Assembly (NCBI GenBank): GCA_022824205.1 | Contig: JAJEAI010000150.1 | Location: 1-60,179 of the forward strand | Source of the DNA: Candidatus Binatia bacterium | Lineage (GTDB): Bacteria > Desulfobacterota > Binatia > UBA9968 > JAJDTQ01 | Length of the DNA: 60,179 nucleotides | Direction of reading: 5' to 3' | In this document: positions 34,561 through 50,037 of the stretch, in pieces | Position numbering within the stretch: position 1 is the first letter of the stretch | Layout of the letters: every line of letters starts with the position of its first letter | Notes under the pieces: model-generated | What the model saw: the letters and a program-made list of their open reading frames with translations, nothing else | Databases searched by the model: none | Told to the model about the DNA's origin: nothing | Translations under genes and position numbers: made by a program

Positions 34561-34809
34561 TCATTCGCGCGAAACAGGCTGTGTCGAAATACCAGTCAAG
34601 ACGACATTCCCAGCCCCCCAATACGTCATACCCGGCCCTCCAATACGTCATACCCGGCTCTCCAATACGTCATTCCCGCGGAAGCGGGAATCCAGGGGTG
34701 GTTGTGTGGCGGCCCATTGCCCCAGGCCCACCCCGCCTGGATTCCCGCTTCCGCGGGAATGACGTATTGGAGGGCCGGGTATGACGTATTGGGGGGCTGG
34801 GAATGACGT
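34561..34809. repeat. Complex intergenic palindrome: hairpin element with tandem flanking units
   Basis: The 445-base gap 34479-34923 holds no gene. 34561-34588 is a reverse copy of the second repeat module (GCGCGAAACAGGCTGTGTCG). The hairpin core arms are 34668-34694 and 34736-34763. Outside the core both arms carry short tandem units around CCAATACGTCATACCCGG: two further units on the left (34602-34667) against one on the right (34764-34809), so the palindrome extends to about 200 bases. The extra left unit looks like a slippage duplication. Confidence 0.85.
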
Positions 34810-41198: not shown

Positions 41199-41555
41199 AT
41201 GCAACAAACGAGGAAGACGGGGAAACCGGTCGTGCGGTTCATCGAGCGGTTGCAGCAAACCGGTGGCTTGAAGGGGACCGACATCGCCAATTTCACCGGT
41301 GTTTCCAAGGCGACGGTGTCCCGATGGGGGAGCGGCCAGAAGTCGCCTCATCCGAAAACGCAACTGATCATGTCGGATCTGTCCTACGTCGTGATGCGGC
41401 TCAGCGACTACTATGACCAAGAGCAGGTACGCGCCTGGCTTTATGCACGGCACCCGCAGTTGGACGGTGAGCGGGCCATCGACCTGATCCATGGTGACCG
41501 CACCGAAGAAGTGATCGCTGTCCTGGATCGTTTGGATGCGGACGCGTATCTCTGA
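41199..41555 (+). CDS. Xre/MbcA/ParS-type antitoxin
   Basis: 118 aa. An N-terminal helix-turn-helix (GTDIANFTGVSKATVSRWGS, about residues 27-46) is followed by the C-terminal domain that in this family plugs the toxin (VRAWLYARHPQLDGERAIDL ... EEVIAVLDRLDADAYL). GGAG is 6 bases upstream of the ATG. The RES toxin gene starts 3 bases after its stop. The promoter contains a matching inverted repeat, so the pair is likely autoregulated. Confidence 0.92.
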   Translation: MQQTRKTGKPVVRFIERLQQTGGLKGTDIANFTGVSKATVSRWGSGQKSPHPKTQLIMSDLSYVVMRLSDYYDQEQVRAWLYARHPQLDGERAIDLIHGDRTEEVIAVLDRLDADAYL

Positions 41556-41557
41556 CC

Positions 41558-42130
41558 ATGGCGCAAGGGGATCGCTTCCAGACCGGGTCCCGGATACGGG
41601 ATCGGCGTTTGCTCGATGCGTTGGAACGCGTCGCGCAGTCTCCCTACTCTGGAACGGTGTGGCGGTCGGTGCGAGAGGGCTCTGATCCGCTTGTGTGCGC
41701 ACGCGCTGGAGGACGTTGGGACGACGGTACGTTGGACGTGCTCTACACCTCGGAAACGCGCGGGGCTGCCATCGCGGAGCGACGTTTCCATCTGTATCAG
41801 GGCCAGCCCCTTCCGCCTTCGAAAGTACGTTATGAATCGTTCGAATTGGCGGTGTCTCTGGAGGCGGTCATGCGCTTCCCCGACCTTGAAGCACTCTCCG
41901 CCATCGGGTTCGATGCGGCGTCTTACGGCCACTTGAGCTATCTTGAGCGGAAGAGAGAATACCCGCGTTCCCAGGAGATCGCCGAGGCATGCGCCTTCCT
42001 GGGCGCGGACGGTTTGTGGGTCCCCAGCGCCCGTGATCCGGCGTCGAACAATCTGATTGTCTTCTGCGAACAGGAGACGCGGATCGCCAAGGATATCGTC
42101 CGCGGCCATGGGGTTGTCGATTTTGATTGA
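41558..42130 (+). CDS. RES-domain toxin (NAD+-degrading)
   Basis: 190 aa. The RES family residues can be seen: Arg in VWRSV (R36), GGRWDDG (R53), the Tyr in LYTSE (Y63), the Glu in AIAERRFH (E74), and the C-terminal segment DPASNNLIVF with the conserved Ser. RES toxins such as MbcT deplete NAD+ and stop growth when free of the antitoxin. The start follows the antitoxin stop by 3 bases. It begins the accessory island beside the tRNA-Ala gene. Confidence 0.92.
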   Translation: MAQGDRFQTGSRIRDRRLLDALERVAQSPYSGTVWRSVREGSDPLVCARAGGRWDDGTLDVLYTSETRGAAIAERRFHLYQGQPLPPSKVRYESFELAVSLEAVMRFPDLEALSAIGFDAASYGHLSYLERKREYPRSQEIAEACAFLGADGLWVPSARDPASNNLIVFCEQETRIAKDIVRGHGVVDFD

Positions 42131-42341
42131 ACGGCCTGACGTCCCCGGCAGGTGGCGTTCAAGACTGGACCGGCCGAACGGAGAGATCTACGCCAAGGTG
42201 TTGGACGCCGAGGGCAACCCGGCTGATGACTGGGATCCGACAGCCGATTCGCGACTTACGGCGACCTACAATGCTCTGGTCCAGAGTTGGCCGGAGATCA
42301 CTCGCTTGGCCGGCTCCCCAGAGCAGCCAAGGCTACTCTAA
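42108..42341 (+). CDS. Hypothetical small protein, possibly a remnant
   Basis: 77 aa open frame starting inside the end of the RES gene (ATG at 42108). It is polar, with DRPNGEIYAKVLDAEG and an acidic DDWDP stretch, and I recognise no family. It has no clear ribosome site. The following 170 bases, up to the ATPase remnant at 42511, hold no recognisable gene. It may be a decayed tail of a lost gene. Confidence 0.25.
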   Translation: MGLSILIERPDVPGRWRSRLDRPNGEIYAKVLDAEGNPADDWDPTADSRLTATYNALVQSWPEITRLAGSPEQPRLL

Positions 42342-42510: not shown

Positions 42511-42776
42511 ATGGCAATCACGAACCACGAGAGGGTCGGCAGGGCGATGGCCTCCTCCGGGAAGGTCTTGCGGGTGCAATGCGGGCTGGACTCGACGCCA
42601 GCCAGATCGCTGACGAAGTCATCTCACATCTGGCGGGCTTGGTCGGTGCTAAGGTATCGGTAACGCTGGACATCGAAGCCGAGATCCCCGACGGTGCTCC
42701 CGACCACGTCGTCCGCACGGTGACCGAAAACAGCCGCACACTGAAGTTCACCAGCCATGGGTTTGAAGAGGAATAG
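42511..42776 (+). pseudogene. Deletion remnant of a DUF499/Swt1-HEPN-type ATPase gene
   Basis: The segment opens MAITNHERVGRAM, the start I associate with large Swt1-HEPN/DUF499 ATPases, and after a 1-base frame change continues GLLREGLAGAM. It then runs directly into a segment I recognise as the C-terminus of the same family: ASQIADEVISHLAGLVGAKV, SVTLDIEAEIPDGAPDHVVR, TENSRTLKFTSHGFEEE, stop at 42776. The intervening several hundred residues are missing, so this is an internal deletion that joined both ends. The recognition is from memory and would need a profile search. Confidence 0.55.
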
Positions 42777-42794
42777 CAATGGGGAGTGCTCAGC

Positions 42795-43970
42795 ATGCAA
42801 ATTGAGCAGATAGAGATCACAAATTACCGTTGCTTCCGCCACGCGACCTTCGACAATCTGCCCCCGATGGTCGTAGTTGTTGGGGCCAATGGCACAGGGA
42901 AGTCGACGTTGTTCGACGTCTTCACCTTCCTTAAGGAAGCCCTTACCCAGAACGCCGCTGCGGCTGTAGCTCGTCGGGGTGGTTTCAAGGAATTGGTCAG
43001 CCGAAGCGAGGATGGCCCCGTCGGCATTACGGTCAAGTTCCGCGAGAGCGGCGGGCGGCTCGCGACTTACGAACTTCGGATCGCCTTGGAGGGCGGTAGG
43101 GTCTCGGTGGCGCGTGAGGTGCTTCGGTACCGCAGGGGACAGTACGGACGTCCCTGGCACTTCGTCGATTTCTCGGGCGGAACCGGAACGGCGATCACCA
43201 ACGAATCCGTCTACGGTGAGCAAGGAGTTGAAGAGCAGCGTGCCGAGTACAAGTTGGATGATCCCAGCGTCCTCGCAATCAAGGGTTTGGGGCAGTTTCG
43301 GGAGTTCCAGGTTGTCTCGGAATTCCGTGGGCTGATCGAAAACTGGCATGTCTCGGACTTTCACATCGCTGACGCGCGTCCCAGCGCGGAAGCCGGCTAC
43401 GCCGAGCATCTGTCAACACGGGGCGACAATGTGGCCCAGGTCGCTCGTTACCTTTACGAGAATCACCGGGACCGCTTTGACAGGGTGCTAGAGTCTATGC
43501 GCCAGCGGGTCCCTGGTGTGAACGATGTCGAGGCCAGACCGACGGAGGACGGGCGCTTGGTGCTGCGCTTTAGAGACGGAAGCTTCAAGGATCCGTTCAT
43601 CGGCCGTTACGTCTCGGACGGGACAATAAAGATGTTCGCTTATCTCGTGCTGCTGTACGACCCCAAGCCTCATCCGCTGCTAGCCGTCGAAGAGCCGGAG
43701 AACCAACTCTATCCCGAGTTGCTCGCGGAATTGGCCGAGGAGTTCCGAGACTACGCTCGTCGCGGCGGACAGGTCTTTGTCTCGACTCATTCACCCGATT
43801 TCTTGAACGGCCTGACGTTGGACGAGATATTCTGGCTGGTCAAGAGGGACGGCTTCTCGGAGGTTTGCCGAGCATCAGATAGCGATCTGTTGCGGAACCT
43901 CGTCACCGAGGGGGATTTGCCCGGCGCACTTTGGAAACAGGGACTGTTCAACGGAGCCGGGTTGAAATGA
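42795..43970 (+). CDS. AAA/ABC-type ATPase, first gene of a putative two-gene defence module
   Basis: 391 aa SMC/OLD-like ATPase. Walker A GANGTGKST is at residues 30-38, preceded by IEQIEITNYRCFRHATFD as in AAA_15/AAA_21 proteins. The signature-like VSDGTIKMFAYLVLLYD is followed by the Walker B LLAVEEPENQLYPELL and the switch FVSTHSPDFLNG. The ATG at 42795 has GGGGAG upstream. The DUF4276 gene begins inside its stop codon (ATGA), so the two are coupled. The ATPase probably recognises a trigger and controls the partner nuclease-like protein. Confidence 0.92.
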   Translation: MQIEQIEITNYRCFRHATFDNLPPMVVVVGANGTGKSTLFDVFTFLKEALTQNAAAAVARRGGFKELVSRSEDGPVGITVKFRESGGRLATYELRIALEGGRVSVAREVLRYRRGQYGRPWHFVDFSGGTGTAITNESVYGEQGVEEQRAEYKLDDPSVLAIKGLGQFREFQVVSEFRGLIENWHVSDFHIADARPSAEAGYAEHLSTRGDNVAQVARYLYENHRDRFDRVLESMRQRVPGVNDVEARPTEDGRLVLRFRDGSFKDPFIGRYVSDGTIKMFAYLVLLYDPKPHPLLAVEEPENQLYPELLAELAEEFRDYARRGGQVFVSTHSPDFLNGLTLDEIFWLVKRDGFSEVCRASDSDLLRNLVTEGDLPGALWKQGLFNGAGLK

Positions 43971-44539
43971 AGCGCATCGTGTTTTTGCTTGAAGAGGACT
44001 CCATGAAGGTCTTGCTTGAAGGATTGCTGCCGAGGCTGATGCCGAATCTGACCTTTCAGTGTCTGGCGCACGAAGGAAAGCAGGACCTTGAGAAAAGCGT
44101 CCCACGTAAGCTGAGGGCTTGGCAGGAGCCAGGTGTGCGGTTCGTGGTGGTCCGGGATCAAGACGGCGGAGACTGCCGTGAGATTAAGTCCACACTTACC
44201 CGATTATGCCGCGAATCAGGCAGGAAGGACGTGCTTGTCCGGGTCGTCTGTCGTGAATTGGAAGCTTGGTACGTTGGCGACACGGAAGCGCTTGGCCGCG
44301 CATTTCCAGGGACCCGGCCAAATGCGTTACGTAGCTTGGAACGCAGCCGGTTCCGAAACCCCGACAACGTAGTCCATCCTTCCGACGCTATCGCCAACGT
44401 CATCCCTGAGTTTCAGAAGCGGTCGGGAGCACGGCGCATGGCTGCTGTCCTTTCCCGCGAAAATAGGTCGCGGAGCTTTCAAGAATTCCTGAGAGGGATC
44501 GAGAGACTTTGGACATCCATGCAGGCCGAGCCGTGCTGA
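43967..44539 (+). CDS. DUF4276 (TOPRIM-like) protein, second gene of the ATPase module
   Basis: 190 aa. MKRIVFLLEEDSMKVLLEGL gives an acidic residue after the first strand (E9/E10), and VVVRDQDGGDC supplies a DxD (D64, D66); RVVCRELEAWYVGDTEAL has further acidic residues. This is the DUF4276 pattern, TOPRIM-like, so a nuclease activity is plausible. It overlaps the ATPase gene by 4 bases. It ends 35 bases before the 3' end of tRNA-Ala, which is on the opposite strand. Confidence 0.88.
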   Translation: MKRIVFLLEEDSMKVLLEGLLPRLMPNLTFQCLAHEGKQDLEKSVPRKLRAWQEPGVRFVVVRDQDGGDCREIKSTLTRLCRESGRKDVLVRVVCRELEAWYVGDTEALGRAFPGTRPNALRSLERSRFRNPDNVVHPSDAIANVIPEFQKRSGARRMAAVLSRENRSRSFQEFLRGIERLWTSMQAEPC

Positions 44540-44573
44540 TGGCTTGGCAGCGATAACAGTGCGGAAGGATTGG

Positions 44574-44646
44574 TGGAGCCGATGGGGATCGAACCCACGA
44601 CCTCTAGATTGCGAACCTAGCGCTCTCCCAGCTGAGCTACGGCCCC
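44574..44646 (-). tRNA. tRNA-Ala (anticodon CGC)
   Basis: 73 bases read on the minus strand: acceptor GGGGCCG/CGGCTCC (one G-T pair) with discriminator A, D-arm GCTC/GAGC, anticodon stem CTAGG/TCTAG with loop TTCGCAA (anticodon CGC, reads GCG) and T-arm GTGGG/CCCAT with TTCGATC loop. CCA is not encoded. The island genes lie on its 3' side, the usual insertion side of tRNA-targeting elements. Confidence 0.95.
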
Positions 44647-45967: not shown

Positions 45968-46092
45968 CGTCATTCCCGCGGAAGCGGGAATCCAGGGGTG
46001 GAGAGGGGCCAAACGGGCGTATTCCCCCGCCTCACCCCGCCTGGATTCCCGCCCCCGATCGGGGTCGAGGGCAAGCTTTCGCGGGAATGACG
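45968..46092. repeat. Hairpin repeat element with a 24-base insertion in one arm
   Basis: Left arm 45968-45996 (core CGTCATTCCCGCGGAAGCGG). The right arm begins at 46040 but is split by about 24 bases (CCCCGATCGGGGTCGAGGGC inside) before resuming at 46076-46092. The inserted piece is itself palindromic (CCCGATCGGG). It fills the gap between larC and bioD, which converge. Confidence 0.85.
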
Positions 46093-49691: not shown

Positions 49692-50037
49692 CCGCGGAAA
49701 CAGGCTGGGTCAAGACTCATGTGGCAGGGACCCTTCGAATCGTCATTCCCGCTTCCCAGGCTGTGTCAAACCTCTCCTCGGACACGAAATGACACCAACC
49801 CCCCGAATCGTCATTCCCGCGAAAGCGGGAATCCAGGGGTGGGGGGTGTGGCGACCTCATTGCCCGGCCCCACCCCGCCTGGATTCCCGCTTCCGCGGGA
49901 ATGACTCATTGGGGTGTAGCGGGATTCCGTAACTACCAGAAGTCATTGAACAAGATTTTATTTTCATATCAATGACGTTCTGTGATGTGGGTGCCTCGTG
50001 AGTTTTGACGTAGCCTGTTCCGCGGGAATGAGGATTC
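49692..50037. repeat. Repeat cluster in the bioF-clpB gap
   Basis: Gap 49649-50173 has no gene. 49692-49721 is a reverse copy of the second module (GGAAACAGGCTGGGTCAAGA). 49741-49770 is a fused copy of a hairpin arm start and the module. 49809-49837 and 49878-49906 are the arms of a full hairpin element (CGTCATTCCCGCGAAAGCGG; the arms differ at one inner base). 50000-50037 is a forward module copy (GTTTTGACGTAGCCTGTTCC). 49940-49975 is an AT-rich stretch. Confidence 0.85.

Follow-up and report, generated by a model that had tools for sequence, protein, structure and literature searches.

PARIS, which consists of AriA and AriB, represents the proposed class 4 of OLD proteins, and the two-gene candidate HEC-01 is said to originate from a preprint by Payne et al. 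(2024). HEC stands for Hma-embedded candidate according to two papers (PMC12988326; PMC10855318), the former of which describes "several" HECs as active against phage and names HEC-06. HEC-01 is named among the defence systems of Desulfovibrio piger strains (PMC12724379), and a 2026 survey refers to Hma as "DUF499-centred BREX-related systems" (BR) and describes, in BREX and BR loci, OLD-ABC ATPases associated with TOPRIM or other nucleases, the TOPRIM-linked modules having been recruited by these loci (PMC12839542). The present analysis concerns a pair of this kind, an ATPase gene followed by a DUF4276 gene, in a stretch of 60,179 nucleotides (hereafter the window; contig JAJEAI010000150.1 of assembly GCA_022824205.1) from a Candidatus Binatia bacterium of the Desulfobacterota. 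The pair is a real, intact and already catalogued two-gene candidate with an informative local history. Its ATPase likely gates a predicted two-metal TOPRIM nuclease, the two together probably representing an autonomous anti-phage effector. In this assessment the fold is predicted, and the coupled intact genes, the constant pairing in the loci checked, the conserved acidic residues and the ruined Hma operon nearby are established by sequence and comparison.

Gene pair and assignment to HEC-01

The first gene (42795..43970, + strand; ATG at 42795, TGA at 43970) codes for an OLD/ABC-type ATPase of 391 aa (AAA_21/AAA_15) and the second (43967..44539, + strand; ATG at 43967, TGA at 44539) for a DUF4276 protein of 190 aa, a predicted TOPRIM nuclease. 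Stop and start codons overlap in the sequence ATGA (43967..43970, + strand). The motif GGGGAG (42781..42786, + strand), judged Shine-Dalgarno-like by eye, is located 8 nt upstream of the ATPase start codon, and a GTG at 42786 is in frame with the ATPase open reading frame (ORF). The pair comprises 1,745 nt free of stops and frameshifts, with ATPase motifs and metal-site acids retained. In the alignment row of the window ATPase, the stretches GANGTGKST (residues 30-38), SDGT (274-277), EEPE (299-302) and STHSP (with H332) were recognized by eye, the first three of which we take to be the Walker A motif, a signature-like motif and the end of Walker B, respectively. Pfam assigned the ATPase to AAA_21 (106.9 bits; cut-off 27) and the second protein to DUF4276 (37.9 bits; cut-off 30.2), and the latter carries E9, D64 and D66. 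Two ATGA-coupled genes, a Walker-type AAA_21 ATPase and these three acidic residues had all been proposed by a first-pass annotation of the stretch, which the ORF positions, motifs and profile scores bear out.

Comparison with PADLOC-DB 2.0.0 identified the pair as HEC-01: the ATPase matches model PDLC04144 with 577.8 bits across residues 1-388 of 391, and the adjoining DUF4276 protein matches PDLC04143 with 200.5 bits across residues 1-185 of 190. Both scores far exceed those of the other PADLOC families shown; the A/B labels of the two models are reversed relative to the other HEC-01 models shown. Order, adjacency and overlap of the genes are as in relatives. Due to the PADLOC match, the D. 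piger report and the survey of TOPRIM-linked OLD-ABC modules, the kind of pair is already known, and the suggestion of a distinct defence system, in the sense of an undescribed one, was abandoned. A wholly new system is ruled out by the HEC-01 match of both genes.

Further known systems share individual traits with the pair. With PARIS it has in common that ATPase and TOPRIM (the latter by predicted fold) are encoded by separate genes and that a two-metal site is predicted, and AriA models match the window ATPase weakly (98.9 bits); the partner is, however, DUF4276, and the 15 PADLOC matches that this protein gives up to E 0.1 include no AriB model. Gabija GajA and other class 2 OLD proteins share the C-terminal TOPRIM plus helical fold predicted in DUF4276, but combine in one protein what the window encodes as two. 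No match to GajB or a UvrD-like helicase was detected among the other scanned ORFs of the islet, the neighbours being Hma stubs, a RES/Xre pair and tRNA-Ala. MADS is approached in that the ATPase weakly matches the Mad3 profile (125.1 versus 420 bits) and DUF4276 that of Mad4 (18.3 versus 160 bits), but both scores fall far short of the curated NCBIfam cut-offs. Membership in MADS, PARIS or Gabija is ruled out by the profile scores (PADLOC, NCBIfam cut-offs). AriA and GajA are not among the 50 matches listed for the ATPase, which excludes nothing.

Fold prediction for DUF4276 and pairing across relatives

DUF4276 is predicted to adopt a TOPRIM nuclease fold. The predicted model matches the C-terminal TOPRIM and helical region of class 2 OLD proteins over 170 of 190 residues and contains the TOPRIM sheet plus helical domain known from the C-terminal regions of Bp and Xcc OLD, in agreement with the TOPRIM-like character and the PARIS/Gabija-like plan that had been proposed from the letters of the stretch. 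The metal-A ligands of class 2 OLD (E and DxD) are matched by E9, D64 and D66 of the window protein, and E97-x-E99 would fit the metal-B residues T506-x-E508 of Bp OLD, judging by its position after the fourth strand. The fold prediction supplies concrete candidate catalytic residues for DUF4276. A sequence search of DUF4276 against the PDB yielded two unrelated designed proteins only, and a literature search for DUF4276 found no paper.

Structural similarity of the model is lower to AriB than to class 2 OLD. DNA is preferred over tRNA as the putative substrate because the C-terminal region with which class 2 OLD cuts DNA is, taken as a whole, a better match for DUF4276 than AriB is. This bears on a PARIS-like guard function, in which the ATPase would sense phage anti-restriction proteins disabling an Hma or restriction-modification (R-M) partner and free DUF4276, whereupon tRNA would be cut and translation would stop. 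The separate ATPase and TOPRIM genes and the weak AriA match resemble PARIS, the DUF4276 model does so less, and a guard of this type is considered rather unlikely.

Pairing was investigated by a genome scan with DUF4276, which revealed 128 loci, the best 80 of which were kept (48-71 % identity in DUF4276); because the sample was picked by DUF4276, broken pairs are under-counted. An ATPase homologue (53-84 % identity) is located directly upstream on the same strand in all 80 loci, and the genes overlap by exactly 4 nt in 54 and by 1 nt in 11 of 72 measurable loci. In the wider PF14103 family (29 fetched loci plus four other DUF4276 loci of the window's own genome), the ATPase adjoins DUF4276 in 32 of 33 loci checked, the remaining one (L157) being cut by a contig end. 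Within this set, the ATPases of L150 and L154 are likewise cut by a contig end, and L005 has a weak one of 36 bits that lacks the Walker A pattern. The arrangement of ATPase and DUF4276 is thus beyond chance. Overall, a DUF4276 match was found in 47 of 297 sampled genomes of the phylum (window genome included), and viral contigs contributed one relative (L006, 45 % identity).

The four other DUF4276 genes of the window's genome (L001, L002, L004 and L005 on contigs C160, C100, C206 and C17) each lie beside an ATPase gene, weak in the case of L005. The DUF4276 search frame of L001 holds one TGA, and on contigs C160 and C206, DUF499/HmaC-like genes also occur at distances of about 36 and 9 kb, respectively.

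Hma remnants at the tRNA-Ala site and origin of the pair

Among the 80 relatives, HmaC (whole or stub) was detected in 30 loci, in all of them 3' of the pair on the same strand. The order script labelled 24 of these "down" and six "mixed"; in the latter, which were counted as downstream, matches overlap the end of the pair by up to about 300 bp before continuing downstream. Loci that also have HmaA and HmaB usually read HmaA-HmaB-[ATPase-DUF4276]-HmaC, with L052 as an exception for HmaB. The window shows the opposite order, the HmaC stubs being located 5' of the pair. Five other loci contain Hma stubs beside an intact HEC-01 (L020, L031, L037, L060, L066), of which L060 kept a full-length HmaC and has only HmaA and HmaB as stubs; HmaA-like sequences located 5-7 kb off on the opposite strand in L027 and L066 were not scored as stubs. 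Of 55 loci first clustered as non-Hma, five (L020, L037, L060, L061, L066) later gave HmaC traces. In L010 (11288-12856) and L012 (10908-12476), a gene for a 522-aa protein lies between HEC-01 and HmaC, as a second cargo stacked in the gap.

Directly upstream of the window pair, Hma survives as fragments only: an HmaB stub of C-terminal codons in two pieces (42222-42261, 42265-42341; overall 42222..42341, + strand), the first ~21 codons of HmaC with a 1-nt deletion (42511..42572, + strand), and the last ~67 codons of HmaC (42573..42776, + strand), fused to the first ones by a 3,033-bp loss relative to the same-genus genome G005. No HmaA match was found in the stretch from 38.0 to 46.5 kb in comparison with the set of relatives' genes. 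With stubs of HmaB and HmaC in place of an intact HmaA-HmaB-HmaC set, there is no working Hma in the window. At the same tRNA-Ala(CGC), G005 carries a partial HmaB, a BrnT-like gene, an intact HmaC of 1,099 aa (PADLOC HmaC 1,161.8 bits; HEPN_Swt1 and DUF499) and a DUF932 gene; HEC-01 is missing, and the Hma operon survives there in part. The BrnT-like gene (L137 1795-2319, below the Pfam cut-off) sits between HmaB and HmaC, the usual place of HEC-01. Measured against G005, three stretches are gone from the window, namely 165 bp of HmaB, ~800 bp that in G005 hold the BrnT-like gene, and 3,033 bp from within HmaC, and the 1-nt loss shifts the frame; the ~800-bp difference could instead represent an insertion in G005. 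Homology to G005 stops at 42787, 8 nt 5' of the ATPase ATG, and restarts at 44564, 7 nt before the tRNA-Ala(CGC) gene (44571..44646, - strand) that bounds the variable slot on the right; from ~44564-44571 onwards, the window is again syntenic with its same-genus relatives.

The tRNA-Ala site was compared in seven (G001-G007) of eight same-genus genomes and, from a thiolase-like gene to tRNA-Ala(CGC) (L135-L141), is a cargo-swapping slot in the genus. Its cargo comprises DUF488, a Schlafen/AlbA-like protein and Ppl in G002, DUF488 and ORFs resembling (by eye) an IS21-type transposase pair in G004, and DUF488 in G003; the slot is near-empty in G006 (~190 bp with a DUF488 stub), G001 (~130 bp) and G007 (~120 bp). 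No close HEC-01 was found in any of the eight same-genus genomes, weak matches in G001, G002 and G006 reaching at most 90 bits versus 309.5 for the window. The islet has a G+C content of 0.59 versus 0.66 for the window. With one 18-nt pattern allowing up to 5 mismatches, no direct repeat of the tRNA 3'-end was detected at the islet's left edge.

Outside the pair, the interval from the left flank to the stubs of Hma contains genes for an Xre/MbcA/ParS-type antitoxin (41199..41555, + strand) and a RES-domain toxin (41558..42130, + strand); a C-terminal RES stub (30 codons, 80 % identity) occupies the same site in G002 (L140). A ~35-bp repeat is dispersed on both strands in the window (34664-34698, 34736-34768, 45968-46003, 49804-49846) and in same-genus genomes.

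A tree was calculated from 71 ATPases, i.e., that of the window and those of 70 of the 80 loci; it omits L016, L029, L041, L062 and L080 (cut, shortened or split ATPase) and five HmaC-less loci with less than 2.5 kb downstream, and loci with an HmaC stub alone were labelled Hma-linked. The window ATPase pairs with that of L013 (support 100/97), a locus without HmaC, within a supported set of 11 (95/83), the ten other members of which all lack HmaC. For 41 of the 70 tree relatives, each with at least 2.5 kb downstream, HmaC was not found. The Hma label changes 12 times on the tree, at least six of these changes being forced by supported branches, versus 22.4 when shuffled. Hma linkage was thus gained or lost repeatedly and is also partly inherited.

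The 3'-of-HmaC order, the same-genus Hma without HEC-01 and the nearest tree relatives without HmaC suggest that the acquisition of HEC-01 was probably a separate event and that the pair outlasted Hma. In the simplest account, HEC-01 of a stand-alone lineage would have entered the slot between HmaC and tRNA, and Hma would have been deleted afterwards. Several observations pull in the other direction: the clustering of the Hma label on the tree (none of 500 shuffles gave so few changes), support for the set of 11 that is barely over the threshold with the bootstrap not settled, and the Hma-linked L025, which by path length is as near as the second-nearest unlinked row (0.43 each). Moreover, HEC-01 may possibly have been lost in G005 rather than gained in the window, the frame starting 8 nt past the end of homology.

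A pair that is an accessory Hma subunit, left after the deletion and now functionless or decaying, would account for the stubs directly upstream, for HmaC lying downstream of the pair in all HmaC-bearing relatives with HmaB upstream in most, and for the five other intact pairs beside Hma stubs. It is nevertheless improbable, as the window pair lies on the other side of HmaC than in 30 of 30 relatives, the same-genus Hma at the same site does without it, HmaC was not found for most tree relatives and is missing from the rest of its own set, and both ORFs are intact. The idea of a retained part of a larger system, raised in the first-pass annotation, therefore stands as far as the Hma stubs are concerned, but order, G005 and tree favour a separate, later neighbour. 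The simple account in which HEC-01 remained from an Hma that had embedded it was rejected, as G005, the order test and the tree speak against it.

The islet also bears on the possibility that chance alone has left the pair intact, its expression or activity having ceased. Erosion is evident from the Hma stubs, which lack three stretches and are frameshifted relative to G005, and six of the 80 relatives have damaged pairs. Against this, the 1,745 nt of the window pair are open with motifs, acids, Shine-Dalgarno-like site and ATGA overlap kept, and pN/pS (proportions of nonsynonymous to synonymous differences; NG86 counts) is low, an average that reflects mostly older divergence. A chance survivor is accordingly regarded as very improbable.

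Proposed function and its alternatives

For the favoured autonomous HEC-01 effector, we envisage that an ATPase dimer binds the nuclease and keeps it inactive until a phage signal alters the ATP state of the ATPase. The freed nuclease would then cut nucleic acid, more likely DNA than tRNA, and infection would be arrested, perhaps at the cost of the cell. HEC-01 from a lineage unlinked to Hma would have arrived in the HmaC/tRNA-Ala slot and been retained while Hma was deleted; if it was so kept, it would need no Hma.

A housekeeping or stress role of an OLD-type ATPase-nuclease in replication, repair or cell cycle, instead of defence, is another reading; an archaeal member of the OLD ATPase family is described as functioning in cell-cycle progression (PMC12796447). 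The window ATPase resembles SMC/Rad50-like ATPase heads, and recurrent defence neighbours of the stand-alone branch were absent from the part scanned. Such a role is, however, hard to reconcile with the low G+C content of the islet, the lack of a close copy in all eight same-genus genomes, a site that swaps cargo including Hma and Ppl among relatives, and the repeated presence of the pair in Hma loci; its probability is judged to be low.

A defence neighbourhood does recur, as the initial proposal required, in that HmaC (whole or stub) accompanies 30 of 80 loci, but no PADLOC family matched more than two of 133 scanned neighbours (271 available, within 3 kb) of the loci first clustered as non-Hma. 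Individual cases are BREX PglX near the pair at L084 and at one further neighbour, presumably L078, and a gene upstream of the pair in L013 that clusters with an MmeI-like R-M protein (L032). The flanks of the near relatives L013 and L007 have in common a gene weakly resembling nucleoside deoxyribosyltransferase (below the Pfam cut-off) before the pair and a gene for a 370-aa protein after it.

The missing recurrence outside Hma in the neighbours scanned, which makes for a weak association of the stand-alone branch with defence islands, is one of several points that speak against an autonomous effector. The acidic residues, predicted to persist in homologues, do so for E9 and D64, which are conserved among DUF4276 relatives, but not throughout for D66, which is N in 5 of 56 rows of the DUF4276 alignment (L013 omitted, frame broken) and in 21 of 120 listed protein matches, including P0002 (79 % identity). 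In addition, no acidic residue was seen in DUF4276 where a counterpart of E404, a metal-B ligand in Bp OLD, should lie. In L040 (8811-10004), whose Hma locus is otherwise complete, the ATPase carries E at the position of the Walker A lysine (GSGEST). The six damaged pairs are affected in DUF4276 (L013, L016, L039) or in the ATPase (L029, L041, L062): the ATPase is split by a frameshift in L029 and reduced to its C-terminal part in L041 and L062, and ATPases of L016 and L080 are cut at a contig edge. The reverse of the window, a damaged pair beside a full-length HmaC stretch, occurs in L039 and L041 (HmaC of the latter in two ORFs). Finally, a search of the literature, in the text accessible, retrieved no report of an activity test of HEC-01 itself.

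On a broader scale, DUF4276-ATPase pairs may constitute a second, PARIS-independent split-OLD lineage that travels alone, moves in and out of Hma and R-M loci, settles on either side of HmaC and survives the death of the large restriction operon; the embedded guard would then be the part that lasts, and its host operon the one that is expendable. This generalization is put forward tentatively, at somewhat less than an even chance, its standing having been lowered by L041 as the second damaged pair beside a full-length HmaC stretch.

For the genus, the tRNA-Ala slot, with HmaC whole or deleted depending on the genome, provides a natural before/after comparison of the defence layers that selection retains. 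Should HEC-01 function in the absence of Hma, its location inside a defence operon would be no sign of a shared mechanism, and it would be testable as a two-gene system.
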